Assembly: GCA_937958005.1 (NCBI GenBank)
Contig: CALGOB010000062.1
Span: 1-64,000 of the forward strand
DNA length: 64,000 bases
Source of the DNA: an uncultured Cyclobacteriaceae bacterium
GTDB taxonomy: Bacteria > Bacteroidota > Bacteroidia > Cytophagales > Cyclobacteriaceae
Direction of reading: 5' to 3'
Shown here: piece by piece, positions 28,858 to 39,245 of the stretch
Layout of the letters: each line of letters opens with the position of its first letter
How positions within the stretch are numbered: position 1 is the first letter of the stretch
Position numbers and translations under genes: made by a program
Notes under the pieces: generated by a model
The model's input: the letters and a program-made list of their open reading frames with translations, nothing else
Told to the model about the DNA's origin: nothing
Database searches by the model: none

Positions 28858-31800
28858 ATGGCAAAACAAAATAAGTTTGGAACATTTGGCGGAGTGTTTG
28901 TTCCATCTATTTTAACTATCCTGGGGGTAATCATGTATCTCAGGCTCCCAACCATAATAGGAGAAGCTGGTCTATGGGCCACTATTGGTATTATTATAGT
29001 AGCGCATATTATATCTGTCACCACAGGACTAAGTGTCTCTTCTATTGCTACTGATAAAAAAGTAGAAGCGGGAGGTACTTATTACATGATATCCAGAAGC
29101 CTTGGTCTTCCAATAGGGGGTACATTAGGAATTGCCTTGTTTATGGGGCTATCGTTTAGTGTGAGTTTATACCTGATAGGGTTTTCTGAAAGTTTTCTCA
29201 ATACCTTCGATTGGGAAATTACTAAGAATAATATTCGTCTAGTAGGATCTATTACACTCATCATTGTTACAATTATTACTTTTATTAGCACCTCTTTGGC
29301 GCTAAAAACTCAATATTTCATATTAGGTTTAATTGTACTTTCCCTCATTTCAATATTCATGGGTTTTGGAAATCATACACATGTTGCAGAAAGCCCATTA
29401 TTTACAAACCCTACTTCTACTATTCCCTTAATGACTTTATTTGGAATATTTTTTCCGGCAGTAACTGGCTTTGAAGCAGGAGTCTCTATGTCGGGTGATT
29501 TAAAAGATCCAAAAAAATCAATACCTGGTGGTTCTATTATGGCCATTGCTGTTGGTTTTACAGTCTATATAATACTGGCATTTTTCTTATCTTATACTGT
29601 GGATGCAGGCTTTCTTAACAATACGGATGGAAAAGCTCCAATGGTAGAAATAGCTCGTATTAAAGAATTAGTCATAGCAGGCATTTGGGGTGCCACACTT
29701 TCATCGGCATTAGGTAGTATTTTAGGTGCACCAAGAATCTTACAGGCTACAGCGATTGACAAAATAACACCTAGTTTTCTGGGAAAAGGATCTGAAAAAA
29801 GTAATGAACCCCGTAATGCATTGTTACTCACTTTTGCTCTTGCTGAAATCGGTATATTAATTGGTGAATTAGATGTAATTGCTAGAATTGTTTCTATCTT
29901 CTTCATTACCACTTACGGGTTCTTAAATATCAGTGCCGCTTTCGAGAAATTGACCAGTACCGATTTTCGTCCTGAGTTCAAAGTTTCACACTGGATCAGT
30001 ATTGTAGGTGCTATTGCCTGTATCATTGTCATGATCCTTTTAGATTTTGTGGCATTACTAGGAGCAACCGTACTTCTTTTTGCCTTGTTTTTCTATTTAA
30101 AGAACAAAGAACTCTCTCTTGAATCTGGTGATGCATGGAGCGGCGTTTGGGCTACACTGGTTAAAAAAGGGCTGACTAAATTAACTAAAAACAAACTGCA
30201 CAATAGAAACTGGAGGCCTAATATCATTATGTTTTCAGGTAATCCAAATACCCGAAAATACATGATCCAGATGGGCAAGGCCATTTCAGGTAAACTCGGG
30301 GTGCTCTCTGCCTTTGAACTTCAAGAGAGTGATGCTAAAATATTGGTAAAAACAGCTGCTAACCTCAAAGAAGAAGCTGATGATTCAGGTTATTTTCACT
30401 ATAAATTCAATTGCAAGGATGTCTATGCCGGGATGGACAGTGTTTCAAGGCTTTATGGTTTTTCAGGAATAGAACCCAATACCATTCTGATGGGCTGGAG
30501 CAGAAACCCGAGAAACAAAGACCAGTTTATTGACCTTTTGAAAGGCTTTGATGAAAATGGCTACAATTCCATTTTCCTAGATTATAATACTGAAAAGAAA
30601 TTTGGCAACCAAAAAACTGTAGATATCTGGTGGACTGGAAATGACAGAAATTTGTCTTTGGCCGTTAAGATTATTCAACACCTTACCTCATCAGAAATTT
30701 GGAAGGTATCCCAGACACGTTTGATGATCATTAACCCAATCAACTCAGAAGCAGAAAATATTTATAGGTCAGCCAGTGCCCTCATGAAAGATTTCAGGGT
30801 AGATGCCGATGTCAGAGTAATTAACAATGAATTAGATCCTCTTTCCAGAAAAGAAATAATAGCAGAGGAATCCAAAACAACCGATTTAGTGATTCTAGGC
30901 ATTTCAGACCGGGCTTATAGCAACCTTGGAGATCATTATGACGATATTAGTGGTATATTAGATGAAGTAGGCAGCACTATGGTTATCAATGCTTCTAAGG
31001 CATTTGAGGAACATGAGGTAATCAGGTTTAATCATACTAGTAAGGAAAATATTTCAACAGAATTTACTGACTTTAATTTACCAGAAATTAAACTTTCTAA
31101 ATATCCTGAAATAGCTGATGACATCACTTTACAACAGCAAAATGGAGCTAAGGTATTAGAACTACTTTTTAGAAAAACATTTGCCCAAACTTCTAAAGAC
31201 CGATTGTCTGCCATTGATGAAATACAACATAGAGTAGAATCTACTCAAAAGGAAGTCCTTAAAATCAACGACCTCAATGAACTTGTAAGGCGGAAAAAAG
31301 CTGTAGACAAACTGAAGAATGATACTTTCTACAAAGTAAATGCATTGCTTAAAAATGGCCTAAGTGATGAAATTCTTAAAGCTCATGAGGAGAAGTTAAC
31401 CCAAGGACTTAATTGGTATTTGGTAAGACTAAAAGAAGAAATCGCCAAATTTCCTATCAAGTTAGTAGTTAATTATCAAGCTGATGATATTAAAATAGAC
31501 CCTAGTGATAGATGGGGCTTAAGGTGGAATAAACGCTGGATGAAGTTTAAAAAGTCAATTTTTGGCATCTCATACAAGCAAGCTATCGCCTATAGAAAAA
31601 GTGCTAAATACTATCAGTACCAAAACAGGTTAGAATTCCTTAATCATTATTTAGAGCAGTTGTTATTAGAAGAAGTTTCTTTTTATGAGCAACTAAGAAA
31701 TATAACCAAAAACTTATTTGCTTATTTCGATAACTTAGAAAAGAAGTTTGATTCAGGGGATGAAAACTGGGCGGATACTTCAGTTCTTGAACAAGTCAAA

Positions 31801-33939
31801 AATGAGGTCATTCTTTTACGTGAATCTGAAAAATCATTGGACATCATCCAGCAAGGAAGGCTACAATTAGAGTATGTGAAAAATCTGCAAATTATGAATG
31901 ATCATTTATCATTAATAGATACAGATGAAATTACTTACCAAAAACTTAAGGGAGATAAATACCACAAAGAACTGGTGCAAAAAGCATCGGAGTTTCCCGC
32001 CTTGTATGATTTAAAAATCAGAAATACTTTAAATCTAATCTTGATAGAATTATCAGTAAACGCCACTCGAAATAGAATGGAGACTATTCAAGATAGTTTT
32101 ATTCAAGAGATCACGCAATTGCTGGAAAGGAAGTATTTTAAAGAGTTGGACCTTTTAGAAGAGATACTTACTAATGAGCAAGAGCTTCCACAACAAGAAA
32201 AATTTAATGCTTCACTGTCTTTAAACACGCATCTTAAGGAAGCATTTGACCATGCTCTGGAACGGATGATCCCATTAATAGAGCAGATGCCCGACAATTT
32301 AAAAATCTCCTCCATTACACAAAATGAAGAGGGTGACTCTTCAGTATCTATCCCTGTGGCAAGGATGATGGAATACTATTTCAAATCTCAGTTTCAAATA
32401 CCCATGGAAGAGGCGTTTGAGCAGTTAAGCGAATCTATCAAAAGATCCACTTACGGGGTTAAGGATATTATTAACCTGGTAGAAATTAGTTTGGAAGGTA
32501 ATCCAGAGAACAAAAATGCTAAAATAGAATCTGAAACTTTAACAGATGCACTCAAAAAAATAAAACAAGAATCCCAGACAGTCAAAGAAGACATCAAACA
32601 GTTTAAGGACATCTCTTGCGAAGCGTTAGGAGAGGTTTACAGCCCATTATCTTCAATGAAAATAGAAAAAAGTGCTTCTGAATTCTCGTCGGGACTGAGG
32701 GTATATCAAAGTAAACAAGTAATAAGCAGTTTAGGTGAACTGTGGCAAAATGGTCAATTGAAAGTTCAGAAATTGATGACAAAGATATTTTATAGCAGAA
32801 GTGAAGGAATTCTTTTTGCCAAGAAAAATAAGCACATCAATTACATACAATCCAATACCAGTAAACTACTTACTTTAAGGGAAAAAGTAAATCCAAAAAA
32901 GTCAGTTACTGCAGTACTTCCACATTTCTATGTGACATTATTCAATGGTAAGTCAAGCATTGGCAAAGATTATTGGGTCACTAGAAATATTGAAGAACAG
33001 TCATTTAAAAAAGCAGTTAAAAGATACAAAGAAGGCTATAAAGGAGGTATCATGGTCATCGGAGACCGTAATACCGGAAAGACTGTTTTCATTAAACAGA
33101 TGGCTCAAGAACTCCTTAAAAACCAACACGTTTATACTGTTTTTCCTTCATCTCAAGGAAGTAGAAGTATCGATGATTTTAATAAAGCCATAGCTAAAGC
33201 CACTCAAAAAAGAGGGGAAGCTCAACAAATCCTAGGCAGACTACCTGCAGGCAGCACCTTAGTAATTAATGATTTAGAATTATTTTGGGAAAGAAGTGAA
33301 GGTGGAAACGCAGTGATTAAACTCCTCCAACAGCTAATTAACCAATACAGTCATAAAATCCTATTCATCCTGAATACCAACCCTCAAGCCTTTAAAATCA
33401 TCAATCAAGAAAATTGCATAGAGCCATATTTTATCGAAATTATTAATATGATGTCATTTGATGCTGAAGAATTGAAAGATTTGGTAATGAAACGTCATAA
33501 ATCCAGTGGACTAGGAATAGTTTATCATGATGAAAAGGTTTTAACAGAGGTTCAGCTAGCACACCTATTCAATAAATATTTTGATTACAGCAGTGGAAAT
33601 CCTGGCACAGCATTGGGAGGTTGGTTAGCCCACATCAATAAACTGAGTAAAGGAAATTTGATTATTAATAAACCAGCTTTTCCTGCGCTTAGTATTTTCA
33701 ATGACTTAGATGAAAATTTGCAATTACTGCTTACGGAATTTGTTTATCATAAGAGACTTTCCGATGCAAGTATCGCTAAAGTCATGAAATGGAGTGAAGA
33801 ACATACAAATTCAATGATTTTATCTATGCAGCGTTCAGGCATCATTACAGAAAAAGTACCTGGGACTTATCAAATAGATCCATTTCTGCAACCTTTCCTA
33901 GTTCAAGCATTCAAGGAGAAAGGATTGTTTACTAAATGA
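28858..33939 (+). CDS. SLC12-type cation-chloride cotransporter fused to helical stalk and P-loop ATPase
   Basis: A single uninterrupted 1693-residue frame. Residues 1-416: APC-fold transporter with 12 helices, starting FGTFGGVFVPSILTILGVIMYLRLP, the hallmark of Na-K-Cl/K-Cl cotransporters. About 450-716: the SLC12 cytosolic domain with two alpha/beta units (NWRPNIIMFSGNPNTRKYM, TTDLVILGISDRAYSNLG). About 730-1330: mostly charged helices, probable coiled coil. About 1380-1560: ATPase with Walker A GDRNTGKT (1402-1409) and Walker B LVINDLE (D1472, E1474). The end looks like a winged helix (SDASIAKVMKWSEEHTNSMILSMQRSGII). Ordinary bacterial SLC12 proteins are about half this size or less. I infer an ATPase-gated ion cotransporter; ion specificity is unknown. 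Divergent from MscS, hence perhaps osmotic control. Confidence 0.85.
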   Translation: MAKQNKFGTFGGVFVPSILTILGVIMYLRLPTIIGEAGLWATIGIIIVAHIISVTTGLSVSSIATDKKVEAGGTYYMISRSLGLPIGGTLGIALFMGLSFSVSLYLIGFSESFLNTFDWEITKNNIRLVGSITLIIVTIITFISTSLALKTQYFILGLIVLSLISIFMGFGNHTHVAESPLFTNPTSTIPLMTLFGIFFPAVTGFEAGVSMSGDLKDPKKSIPGGSIMAIAVGFTVYIILAFFLSYTVDAGFLNNTDGKAPMVEIARIKELVIAGIWGATLSSALGSILGAPRILQATAIDKITPSFLGKGSEKSNEPRNALLLTFALAEIGILIGELDVIARIVSIFFITTYGFLNISAAFEKLTSTDFRPEFKVSHWISIVGAIACIIVMILLDFVALLGATVLLFALFFYLKNKELSLESGDAWSGVWATLVKKGLTKLTKNKLHNRNWRPNIIMFSGNPNTRKYMIQMGKAISGKLGVLSAFELQESDAKILVKTAANLKEEADDSGYFHYKFNCKDVYAGMDSVSRLYGFSGIEPNTILMGWSRNPRNKDQFIDLLKGFDENGYNSIFLDYNTEKKFGNQKTVDIWWTGNDRNLSLAVKIIQHLTSSEIWKVSQTRLMIINPINSEAENIYRSASALMKDFRVDADVRVINNELDPLSRKEIIAEESKTTDLVILGISDRAYSNLGDHYDDISGILDEVGSTMVINASKAFEEHEVIRFNHTSKENISTEFTDFNLPEIKLSKYPEIADDITLQQQNGAKVLELLFRKTFAQTSKDRLSAIDEIQHRVESTQKEVLKINDLNELVRRKKAVDKLKNDTFYKVNALLKNGLSDEILKAHEEKLTQGLNWYLVRLKEEIAKFPIKLVVNYQADDIKIDPSDRWGLRWNKRWMKFKKSIFGISYKQAIAYRKSAKYYQYQNRLEFLNHYLEQLLLEEVSFYEQLRNITKNLFAYFDNLEKKFDSGDENWADTSVLEQVKNEVILLRESEKSLDIIQQGRLQLEYVKNLQIMNDHLSLIDTDEITYQKLKGDKYHKELVQKASEFPALYDLKIRNTLNLILIELSVNATRNRMETIQDSFIQEITQLLERKYFKELDLLEEILTNEQELPQQEKFNASLSLNTHLKEAFDHALERMIPLIEQMPDNLKISSITQNEEGDSSVSIPVARMMEYYFKSQFQIPMEEAFEQLSESIKRSTYGVKDIINLVEISLEGNPENKNAKIESETLTDALKKIKQESQTVKEDIKQFKDISCEALGEVYSPLSSMKIEKSASEFSSGLRVYQSKQVISSLGELWQNGQLKVQKLMTKIFYSRSEGILFAKKNKHINYIQSNTSKLLTLREKVNPKKSVTAVLPHFYVTLFNGKSSIGKDYWVTRNIEEQSFKKAVKRYKEGYKGGIMVIGDRNTGKTVFIKQMAQELLKNQHVYTVFPSSQGSRSIDDFNKAIAKATQKRGEAQQILGRLPAGSTLVINDLELFWERSEGGNAVIKLLQQLINQYSHKILFILNTNPQAFKIINQENCIEPYFIEIINMMSFDAEELKDLVMKRHKSSGLGIVYHDEKVLTEVQLAHLFNKYFDYSSGNPGTALGGWLAHINKLSKGNLIINKPAFPALSIFNDLDENLQLLLTEFVYHKRLSDASIAKVMKWSEEHTNSMILSMQRSGIITEKVPGTYQIDPFLQPFLVQAFKEKGLFTK

Positions 33940-34733: not shown

Positions 34734-34922
34734 TTAAAAAATAATAGGGCAGCCTGGTCCACCAAACAATGAAACTGGGCAATCAGCAGGGTTAACAGTC
34801 CTAACAGGGCATGGTAAATCAACAGAAACTCTATGCCATCCTCCTTTTAATTCATTATCACCTTCTAGTTTAGTTACAAAGCTTTTAACCTTGATGTTTT
34901 CAAGCGAAATTTTCTTAATCAT
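34734..34922 (-). CDS. RiPP precursor peptide, pinensin-like leader (orphan)
   Basis: A 62-residue peptide. Leader MIKKISLENIKVKSFVTKLEG ends in a double-glycine at 27-28. The segment LxxLKVxSFVT resembles leaders of pinensin-family lanthipeptide precursors from Bacteroidota (family recognition by eye). The predicted core is 34 residues with three cysteines at 38, 48 and 58, exactly ten apart, each as CP, plus Ser/Thr at 33, 42 and 51 and many prolines. It shares the leader with the precursors at 37088 and 58775, but the cores are unrelated. No lanthionine synthetase, peptidase or transporter gene lies in the window, so any modification must occur in trans. It has its own downstream terminator, which argues for a real transcript. 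Confidence 0.75.
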   Translation of the reverse strand: MIKKISLENIKVKSFVTKLEGDNELKGGWHRVSVDLPCPVRTVNPADCPVSLFGGPGCPIIF

Positions 34923-35315
34923 GATAAAATTGTTTATAAAATCCCCTACTCTTTACAGGTTTTTCGGGCTTCACCTTCAGAGTAAAAATAGCGTTTCAAC
35001 TCTCAAAAGAAAATTTGATAGGCTACTTAAACTCGGCAAAAACGTAAAATAACGGAAATTGAGTAGGTGCCCCCTCTAGGTTTTTAGGTAGATACGCTTT
35101 AGGTATCATGATTCAACTATGAATCAATTAAGTTTATATTTTACATATTTTACCAAGAGCCTGCATAAAAAAATCACAGCTAAGTTTGAATAAAAGAAGA
35201 GTTTCAAATATCACACTATTTTAGTATGATCTAAAATGGGTACCACTATATACTTTTTCACTCTGAAAAAGTATATAAGCAAGTAAATCCCATTCAAAAG
35301 TAAAGATCAATACAA
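34923..35315. other. Intergenic, no gene seen
   Basis: 393 AT-rich bases upstream of the RiPP precursor and downstream of the EEP hydrolase gene. Besides the hairpin at 35247 nothing is recognisable. Confidence 0.5.
35247..35277 (-). terminator. AT-rich hairpin after EEP hydrolase gene
   Basis: TATATACTTTTTC and GAAAAAGTATATA are perfect 13-bp arms with a 5-base loop, about 40 bases past the stop on the minus strand. The low GC content makes it a weak terminator; a protein-binding dyad is the alternative. Confidence 0.5.
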
Positions 35316-36305: not shown

Positions 36306-36450
36306 GTAATGGATTCTATAAAAATTGAAGGCAAAACTAAATACCCTGCGTTATAATACAACCTTAATCGCTTAGAAAAATCAAATAGTAACACTGACTT
36401 AAAACAAGCCTTTTTCACATATTACACTCCTCATAATCTGTTTTATTTAT

Positions 36451-36626
36451 CCCGAATGATGCATTAGACTTTTAAGAGAAAATCATAAATAGCTGTTAGA
36501 TAGCTACTTAAATTCTGATTTGAAACGCAGACATAGTCTCCATTATAGTGAGTAGGAAATTAGGATTTAAGTGGCTAAATGACTGTTAGTTATGGTTTGC
36601 ATCAAATTTCTATTGCATCATTCGGG
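36451..36626. mobile_element. 176-bp inverted-repeat element (MITE-like), copy at 36.5 kb
   Basis: Begins CCCGAATGATGCATTAGA and ends TCTATTGCATCATTCGGG, which are inverted ends with one or two mismatches. Flanks are TTTAT on both sides, a possible 5-bp duplication. It differs from the copy at 38981 at 7 positions by my count and has the same length and orientation. No coding capacity. Confidence 0.8.
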
Positions 36627-36645
36627 TTTATAATAAACCATTCAT

Positions 36646-37087: not shown

Positions 37088-37291
37088 ATGAAAAAGAATA
37101 TTTTAAAATTAGATCAGCTAAAAGTAAAGAGTTTCATTACTAACCTTGGAGTAGAAACTGAAAAGACTTTAAAAGGAGGGAGTCTTGTGCCGGATCCTAT
37201 CGGTGACAATGACGATACTTTAGACTTCCATTGTGGTAAAGGTGGAAGTGCAATATGTACACTCGGTTGTAGTAATATAATTGTTTGTTGA
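37088..37291 (+). CDS. RiPP precursor peptide, pinensin-like leader (orphan)
   Basis: A 67-residue peptide. Leader MKKNILKLDQLKVKSFITNL ends at a double-glycine (30-31). The core of 36 residues is acidic at first (DPIGDNDDTLDFH), then Gly/Cys-rich, with cysteines at 49, 57, 61 and 67 and Ser/Thr at 54, 58 and 62, a pattern suited to thioether or disulfide rings. The ATG at 37088 is chosen over upstream codons in the same frame because the leader motif begins there. A strong terminator follows 7 bases after the stop, so it is monocistronic. No modifying enzyme is nearby. It lies between two direct copies of the 176-bp element. Confidence 0.75.
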   Translation: MKKNILKLDQLKVKSFITNLGVETEKTLKGGSLVPDPIGDNDDTLDFHCGKGGSAICTLGCSNIIVC

Positions 37292-37297
37292 TAATTT

Positions 37298-37332
37298 AAA
37301 AGGTCTCATACTAATTGATATGAGACCTTTCT
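37298..37332 (+). terminator. Terminator of the plus-strand RiPP precursor
   Basis: AAAGGTCTCATA and TATGAGACCTTT, perfect 12-bp arms around an 8-base loop, directly downstream of the precursor stop. Confidence 0.8.
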
Positions 37333-37351: not shown

Positions 37352-37895
37352 TTAAAGTTTTCTCAACTTATAAATTACTCTTTCCCCTTTGTTAAATACT
37401 TGCCCCAAAATAAGGTCTCCATTCCTGTCAATATCACCTACCACTACTGAAACAGTTTCATTCCCTATAGCTAAATTCCCAAGTTCAAAATTAAATAGAT
37501 TGGGAATTTCTACTGTCCCACTGAAATACTTTGATACCTCTACGGTATAAAGAATCTGATTTTGTCCTCCTAAAAACCGTGCTTCACTATCTACAAATTT
37601 AATCATAGATACATCAGTCAGGTTGTTATCCGTAGCTGGGTAAAGTAATTTATTCACTGCTATCAGGCTTACTGAATCAAATTCACCCCGTCCCTCTTTT
37701 TCTAACTCAACCAACCATCTTCCGGCCAAACCTTGCACGGTTGTGAATAGTGTATTGTTCCTCCCATTTTCTTCTTCTTCATCATTATCTTCATCTTCGT
37801 CATTCTGACCATCTTCTCCGTCTTGACCATCCTCTCCATTTTGGCCATCTTCTTCATCTTGATCATTTCCTTCTTGCTTGCCATCAGACTCTATC
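37352..37895 (-). pseudogene. 5'-truncated protein with acidic Gly-Gln repeats
   Basis: The open frame reaches 38077, but its first ~55 codons are the antisense of the IS1595 remnant, so the native gene is retained only from about residue 60 on. That part starts with a low-complexity acidic tract built of EDGQNG/EDGQDG units and runs of Asp/Glu, then a beta-rich region ending in VVVGDIDRNGDLILGQVFNKGERVIYKLRKL. It looks like the C-terminal part of an exported protein; I do not recognise the family. The insertion removed its signal and start, so it is probably dead. Confidence 0.6.
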
Positions 37896-38835
37896 TCATC
37901 GTTAATAAAATCTAGTGCTTCTTCAACTGATACATTCCCGATGATCAAAGCTGTATGAATCACTTGGCCAAGCTTAAATGGCTTGATGGCTTTGTCTGTG
38001 AAAAATGTAGCCATACAAAATATTGTAAGGCAAACTTGAACAGACCCGTCAATGTACTTCTTGTGGATATCAGGCAACCCCTACCAGAGGTACACTGTTC
38101 CATAAAGTCAAATTCCCACTGCTTAAAGCTTTTTACATAGTCTATTTTATGAGTACCAATAAAAAAAGGATCTCATCTACAGAATTAAGCCGTAAACTCA
38201 ACCTGAGACAGAAAACCTGCTGGTTGTTCCATAAAAAGGTAGCGCAGGCTATGAAAAGCAGTAAACTATATCCCCTTAAAGGTATTGTTGAGATAGATGA
38301 AACGGTAGTTGGCCAACAGGAAGAAGATGTGGTCGGCCGTGCTAATAAGAAAAAGAAATTAGTTATTGTAGGCATTGAGAAACAGGGTAAAGGTGTGAGT
38401 AGAATGTATGTAAAAGTAGTTCCAGGTGCTAGCGAAAAGTCTTTTAAACCCTTTTTTATCGATTATATCGATAAGGGTCGCAAATTAGGACAGATGGATG
38501 GTCAACGTATCAAACTTTTTTGGAAAATTATCCCAACCTCAAACAGGAGAAAAGTAGCAAGAAAGGTGAAAATTTCAAAGATATGCATAGGGTGATCATG
38601 ATGTTTAAGGTGCGGCCGGCTAGGTATGGCTTAAGGGAATACATCATTCAGTAATGCATTTACAAGATTACCTTGATGAATATGCATACAGGTTCAATAG
38701 GAGCTTTATGAAAGAAAACATATTCGATAACCTTATCAGTAGGGCTGTGAAAATGGCGCCAGTTCCGAAAAAAACAATGAACAAGCAATTGCTAACCCAT
38801 ACTATTGGGTTCCTTTCGTTTCAATAGGAGATCAG
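37896..38835 (+). pseudogene. Decayed IS1595-type transposase
   Basis: Three pieces in different frames reconstruct one transposase. Piece 1 (to about 38050): IPDDQSCMNHLAKLKW and CEKCSHTKYC. Piece 2 (about 38049-38540): CTSCGYQATPTRGTLFHKV completing the zinc ribbon, then TELSRKLNLRQKTCWLFHKK and the DDE start GIVEIDETVVGQQEED. After a further disruption, MHRVIMMFK leads to piece 3 (about 38650-38830): HLQDYLDEYAYRFNRSFMKE. At least two frameshifts plus in-frame stops near the start exclude activity. The terminal inverted repeats could not be located. Confidence 0.85.
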
Positions 38836-39245
38836 TCACCTGTTTATAAAACTAATCATTCAAAATACGTTTGGATCTTTTTAGAGCTTTGTGCATTGAT
38901 TTTCCTATTATTTTTAATCAAAAAGAAGATTTTAAAAATCCCTTTACACTAGTTTAAGTGCATCAGGGAATTCCCTTAAACCCGAATGATGCATTAGACT
39001 TTCAAGAAAAAATCATAAATGACTGTTAGATAGCTACTTAAACTCTGATTTGCAACGCAGACATAGTCTCCATTATGGTGAGTAGGAAATTAGGATTTAA
39101 GTGGCTAAATGACTGTTAGTTATGGTTTGCATCAAATTTCTATTGCATCATTCGGGTTTAACCATGTGTTACTATATCTCTCAGTTCTGATCACTCATCT
39201 GCTTATTTCCTATTATCTTCGTGTTAGAGATATTACTTTTTCTTT
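38836..39245. other. Stretch between IS remnant and uvrB
   Basis: A short open stretch 38818-38949 encodes a hydrophobic tail (YVWIFLELCALIFLLFLIKKK) and looks like the C-terminal membrane anchor of a lost protein; unassigned. The 176-bp element occupies 38981-39156. The last 89 bases must contain the uvrB promoter, which I cannot pinpoint. Confidence 0.45.
38981..39156. mobile_element. 176-bp inverted-repeat element (MITE-like), copy at 39.0 kb
   Basis: Same ends, length and direction as the copy at 36451. Flanks are TTAAA before and TTTAA after; no exact duplication is evident unless the ends are counted as A...T, giving TTAA on both sides. It sits 89 bases upstream of uvrB. Confidence 0.8.

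Follow-up and report, generated by a model that had tools for sequence, protein, structure and literature searches.

One-enzyme, many-substrate lanthipeptide biosynthesis is, to our knowledge, known mainly from the class II LanM enzymes of cyanobacteria. For two of these systems, 29 (ProcM, prochlorosins) and 79 (SyncM, synechococsins) substrates have been given (PMC10783134). Pinensins belong to the lanthipeptides of class I (Mohr et al. 2015, cited in PMC7268733). The survey in PMC7268733 covered only genes at most seven positions from LanC, so that scattered precursors such as those described below would be missed. Here, we describe a short gene on the forward strand of a 64,000-nt stretch of DNA (the window; positions 1 to 64,000 of contig CALGOB010000062.1, assembly GCA_937958005.1, here C62) from an uncultured Cyclobacteriaceae bacterium, whose genome is a 5.49-Mb draft of 267 contigs that is 96% complete. 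This gene, at 37088-37291, very probably belongs to a library of class I lanthipeptide precursors of the pinensin type, spread across the genome, that would be modified in trans by a single enzyme set, encoded on another contig (C10) of the same genome.

The focal gene and its leader family

The open reading frame (ORF) at 37088-37291(+) is intact from ATG to TGA and encodes 67 amino acids (aa), comprising a leader of 31 aa that ends in GG (MKKNILKLDQLKVKSFITNLGVETEKTLKGG; 37088-37180) and a core of 36 aa with four Cys (SLVPDPIGDNDDTLDFHCGKGGSAICTLGCSNIIVC; 37181-37291, including the stop codon). Residues 6-31 match NF038180 (leader_pinensin; NCBIfam, pinensin family lanthipeptide) with 38.3 bits (E 9e-10), and a sister precursor on the opposite strand (34734-34922) matches the same profile with 31.3 bits (E 1.4e-7); the curated cut-off is 24 bits. 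The initial annotation of the window had held that these two peptides share a leader and that the focal core, with its four Cys, is unrelated to that of the sister. Both points are borne out, and the concern that the similarity of the leaders might not be significant in a profile search no longer applies. A Pfam search gave no match for either peptide. The profile is specific: no match in 14 control genomes attained the NF038180 cut-off, and of 196 genomes from the same family, 184 had no match at E 0.001.

All four Cys of the focal core have Ser/Thr ahead of them, and residues that could form thioether rings are therefore present. The lan genes are not found beside the focal gene, the enzymes being encoded on C10; adjacency of precursor and lan genes is a feature of arrangement and is not part of the NF038180 profile. 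Immediately 3' of the focal stop codon, a hairpin at 37299-37330(+) has a predicted stability of -16.1 kcal/mol (z -4.5), which was equalled by none of 200 shuffled sequences. This structure had been annotated as a strong terminator; while the hairpin is indeed stable, its short U tract and its position between converging genes make "terminator-like" the fair wording.

A dispersed precursor set and one split dehydratase

A genome-wide profile search identified 40 NF038180 matches above the cut-off, spread over 27 contigs, as well as a few weaker matches, as against one protein with the LanB N-terminal domain (LanB-N) and one separate protein with the LanB C-terminal domain (LanB-C). No NF038180 match was found on C10, which carries the enzyme operon. 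Cores, including the focal one, are hypervariable across the 38 paralogues that were compared; mean pairwise identity is 47% for the leaders and 19.6% for the cores, with shuffled cores giving 19.1%. Cys accounts for 126 of 1419 core residues (8.9%), for 1 of 1143 leader residues and for 0.4% of the residues in large ORFs of the window, and Ser/Thr is found ahead of a Cys in each of the 38 analysed cores. A few neighbouring precursors on contig C264 have in common a core that starts with DTEDNT, a pattern suggestive of local duplication with subsequent divergence. The proposal that one enzyme set serves a scattered collection of substrates is thus supported by 40 leaders with one split LanB, by a significant profile and by cores that differ completely, and we infer from these that the enzymes act in trans.

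The C10 operon encodes a C39 peptidase-ABC exporter, an HlyD protein, LanB-N (973 aa; about C10:88288-91209), LanB-C (332 aa; about C10:87272-88270) and a LanC-PqqD-like fusion (about C10:85389-87263), and the enzyme domains are complete. Judging from the translations and from general knowledge of these families, LanC still has the CHG motifs of its zinc site, and the Cys motif of the C39 protease is also retained. The genome has three LanC genes in total, and no dehydratase was found with the other two. One of these, a stand-alone LanC gene without LanB, directly follows a precursor on C101 (14997-16759); the other, on C126, precedes a gene for a PAP2 phosphatase.

Based on what is known of the family, the common leader would be recognized by the single split dehydratase of C10 (LanB-N and LanB-C) together with the LanC-PqqD fusion, and these enzymes would convert Ser/Thr to their dehydrated forms and link them to Cys in thioether rings in any core attached. 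The C39-ABC exporter and its HlyD partner, encoded in the same operon, would then cleave after GG and export the peptide, which may be bioactive. As recognition would reside in the leader, cores would be free to diverge and one enzyme set could give rise to dozens of products. For the focal core, modification, ring pattern, export and activity are likewise predicted from what is known of the family.

The leader could instead be a tag for GG-dependent C39 export only, with most cores left unmodified or disulphide-bonded and LanB acting on a minority. It is general knowledge that GG and C39 are enough for the export of unmodified bacteriocins, core Cys could form disulphides, and an RNA found ahead of many of the precursors (DUF805b, see below) also precedes GG peptides that are not of the pinensin type. 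We nevertheless consider this explanation unlikely, given that the leaders carry a conserved block, LKVKSFVT, well ahead of GG, which is typical of the lanthipeptide leader family, that Ser/Thr precedes Cys in every analysed core, and that leaders occur together with LanB-N across genomes. Among the 196 genomes of the same family, NF038180 was found in 12 and LanB-N in 29, and 11 of the 12 genomes with NF038180 also have LanB-N (hypergeometric p 1e-9); the sole genome with leaders and without a LanB-N match (G180) is 81% complete.

Many leaders with a single LanB are also seen in a related, near-complete genome of 6.1 Mb on four contigs (G013), in which 131 NF038180 matches were found at E 0.05. 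Its 5.8-Mb chromosome carries 80 matches above the cut-off in 56 separate places (matches within 5 kb were merged), with one more on a second contig, and the nearest above-cut-off precursor lies 21.7 kb from its single LanB. Named relatives picked via LanB also have multiple leaders (Fulvivirga imtechensis, 31; F. kasyanovii, 22; F. marina, 14; an Aminicenantes metagenome-assembled genome, 10), and the Chitinophaga, Pedobacter and Sinomicrobium genomes searched have one leader match each. On this distribution, the expansion of the leader is mainly a feature of Fulvivirga-like Cyclobacteriaceae. Profile searches of a congener of the window's organism (G048) found neither an NF038180 precursor nor LanB.

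DUF805b RNA, repeats and neighbouring genes

A conserved 5' element before many of the precursors was spotted by eye and then identified as DUF805b RNA (RF02914). The copy upstream of the sister precursor (34943-34977, reverse strand) scores 36.9 bits against a gathering score of 35.6 and includes a pseudoknot. Ten DUF805b matches, seven of them above the gathering score, lie directly upstream of precursors; the whole genome has ten above-gathering matches, and these same seven precede precursors, an association with a probability of about 1e-21 by chance (simple count). The 3' end of the RNA is found about 20 nt before the ATG. An alignment of the sister copy with 28 others, taken from five genomes, supports a pseudoknot between the loop and the 3' end of the RNA: the three loop nucleotides that precede GAAAA pair with the three that follow GAGTA in 85 of 87 cells, and both sides vary. 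None of 500 shuffles attained the covariation score computed for the complete structure; the relatedness of the copies weakens this control, but sliding the pairing partners destroys the signal.

DUF805b copies that are not followed by a pinensin leader precede other GG-type Cys peptides, lipoproteins and secreted proteins, and we read this RNA as a putative regulator of secreted products. One such copy (C172:426-462) is found before a Cys-rich peptide of 57 aa with a GG leader of another type, possibly a second kind of precursor. The chances are about even that a lineage-specific explosion of class I lanthipeptide substrates has taken place, to dozens or more than 100 scattered and freely diverging precursors per genome, and that part of this library forms, with other secreted products, a DUF805b regulon, the signal of which would turn on or shut down a combinatorial arsenal of peptides. 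A promoter of the form TTG / TAnnTTTG shared by the precursors was rejected, with 0 occurrences in 39 upstream regions and 0.4 expected. A Flavo-1 RNA (RF01705; 50.6 bits, gathering score 42) lies near a precursor, on the opposite strand (locus L018, 1106-1182; contig C166).

Several points weigh against the focal gene being a working member of a library served by C10. No DUF805b match was found near 37088, and both the expression of the focal gene and the chemistry of its peptide are predictions. At least four of 44 leader-bearing stretches do not have a usable start codon and look decayed, as expected under birth and death of genes, and, judged from these copies, not every locus is functional. 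The LanC proteins of C101 and C126 could serve subsets of the precursors, though no dehydratase was found with them. A second LanB could also be missing from the 267-contig, 96% complete draft, a small risk to the uniqueness of the enzyme set; the near-complete chromosome of G013, with its single LanB, makes the same point without the draft problem.

The start-less copies and the missing RNA, together with the transposase remnant and the two repeats that adjoin the focal gene, would also be expected if it were a decaying, non-expressed leftover of duplication and only few precursors of the library were live. This seems quite unlikely, however, since the focal ORF is intact, with its ATG, GG and four Cys, and has a strong hairpin after the stop codon, and since DUF805b is carried by only about a quarter of the precursors, most of the remainder being intact without it. 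A precursor modified by the C10 enzymes remains the preferred interpretation of the focal gene.

The focal gene lies between two copies of a 186-bp repeat that resembles a miniature inverted-repeat transposable element (36446-36630 and 38976-39161, both on the forward strand), which are 95% identical and in direct orientation, and have 23-nt terminal inverted repeats. The remnant of an IS1595-type transposase gene (PF12762 above the cut-off, about half of the domain matched) is found at 38149-38595(+). At least 40 copies of the repeat are present genome-wide, at a density per kb that is about five times higher within 1.5 kb of precursors than elsewhere. The placement between repeats noted in the initial annotation is real, and this placement and the local density could indicate that the repeats mobilize precursor cassettes and that the library spreads as composite mobile elements. 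Such a role is very unlikely, as the excess loses significance once densities are calculated for non-coding DNA only (p 0.07 to 0.8) and the majority of precursors lack a repeat within 1.5 kb; proximity is explained by both kinds of element being located in gene-poor DNA, and the flanking of the focal gene by two copies is most reasonably seen as incidental. Elsewhere, a leader fragment (C265:29845-29901) apparently merges at its start with the end of a 186-bp repeat, which would fit a precursor gene beheaded by insertion of the repeat.

Among the neighbouring genes, the ORF convergent with the focal gene holds an Asp/Glu-rich tract of nine-base repeats (37764-37885, reverse strand). A permease-like protein of 1693 aa (28858-33939, forward strand) has a long C-terminal extension that contains a P-loop; it has a full-length match in genome G019 (44% identity) and mostly N-terminal matches elsewhere. 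When this protein was used to search for synteny among 39 relatives, no near strain was found, the best full-length match being that of 44%, and no named close relative could be confirmed through it. A weak SAM-II match at 32485-32532, below the gathering score and within a coding gene, was dismissed.

Comparison with described lanthipeptide systems

A search of the open-access literature gave no report that describes a dispersed class I lanthipeptide library or that connects DUF805b to lanthipeptides, and the link between DUF805b and lanthipeptide precursors is new here. Through this link, an orphan RNA gains concrete target genes, which makes its function testable. If confirmed, a class I example that combines a split LanB with as many as about 80-130 leader matches per genome would represent a second, mechanistically different promiscuous platform for ringed peptides. 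Mining that is limited to gene clusters overlooks most of these precursors.

Among the class I lanthipeptides of Bacteroidota, the PedA15 peptides of Pedobacter lusitanus are known as cluster-bound precursors, unlike the genome-wide dispersed library found here. The likeness is in their class and phylum (Bothwell et al. 2021, cited in PMC12328550); in the review PMC12328550, PedA15.2 is named as a substrate cut by the C39-type protease LahT150, i.e., at a GG leader.

With the pinensins, the system described here shares the leader family, a LanB split into one protein for glutamylation and one for elimination, and LanC. It differs from them in that 40 precursors are scattered through the genome, while the Chitinophaga, Pedobacter and Sinomicrobium genomes have a single leader match each, and in that no precursor was detected on the contig that carries the enzymes and the cores are unrelated to each other. 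With the prochlorosins and synechococsins, it has in common one enzyme set, many substrates scattered through the genome, a conserved GG leader and a hypervariable core. Those systems, however, rely on class II LanM enzymes and Nif11-type leaders, whereas here the enzymes are of class I (a split LanB together with LanC) and the leader is of the pinensin type, the focal precursor having no Pfam match and an NF038180 leader instead of one of the Nif11 type. The library can be seen as the class I equivalent of the prochlorosin strategy, and it belongs to the pinensin family of lanthipeptides.
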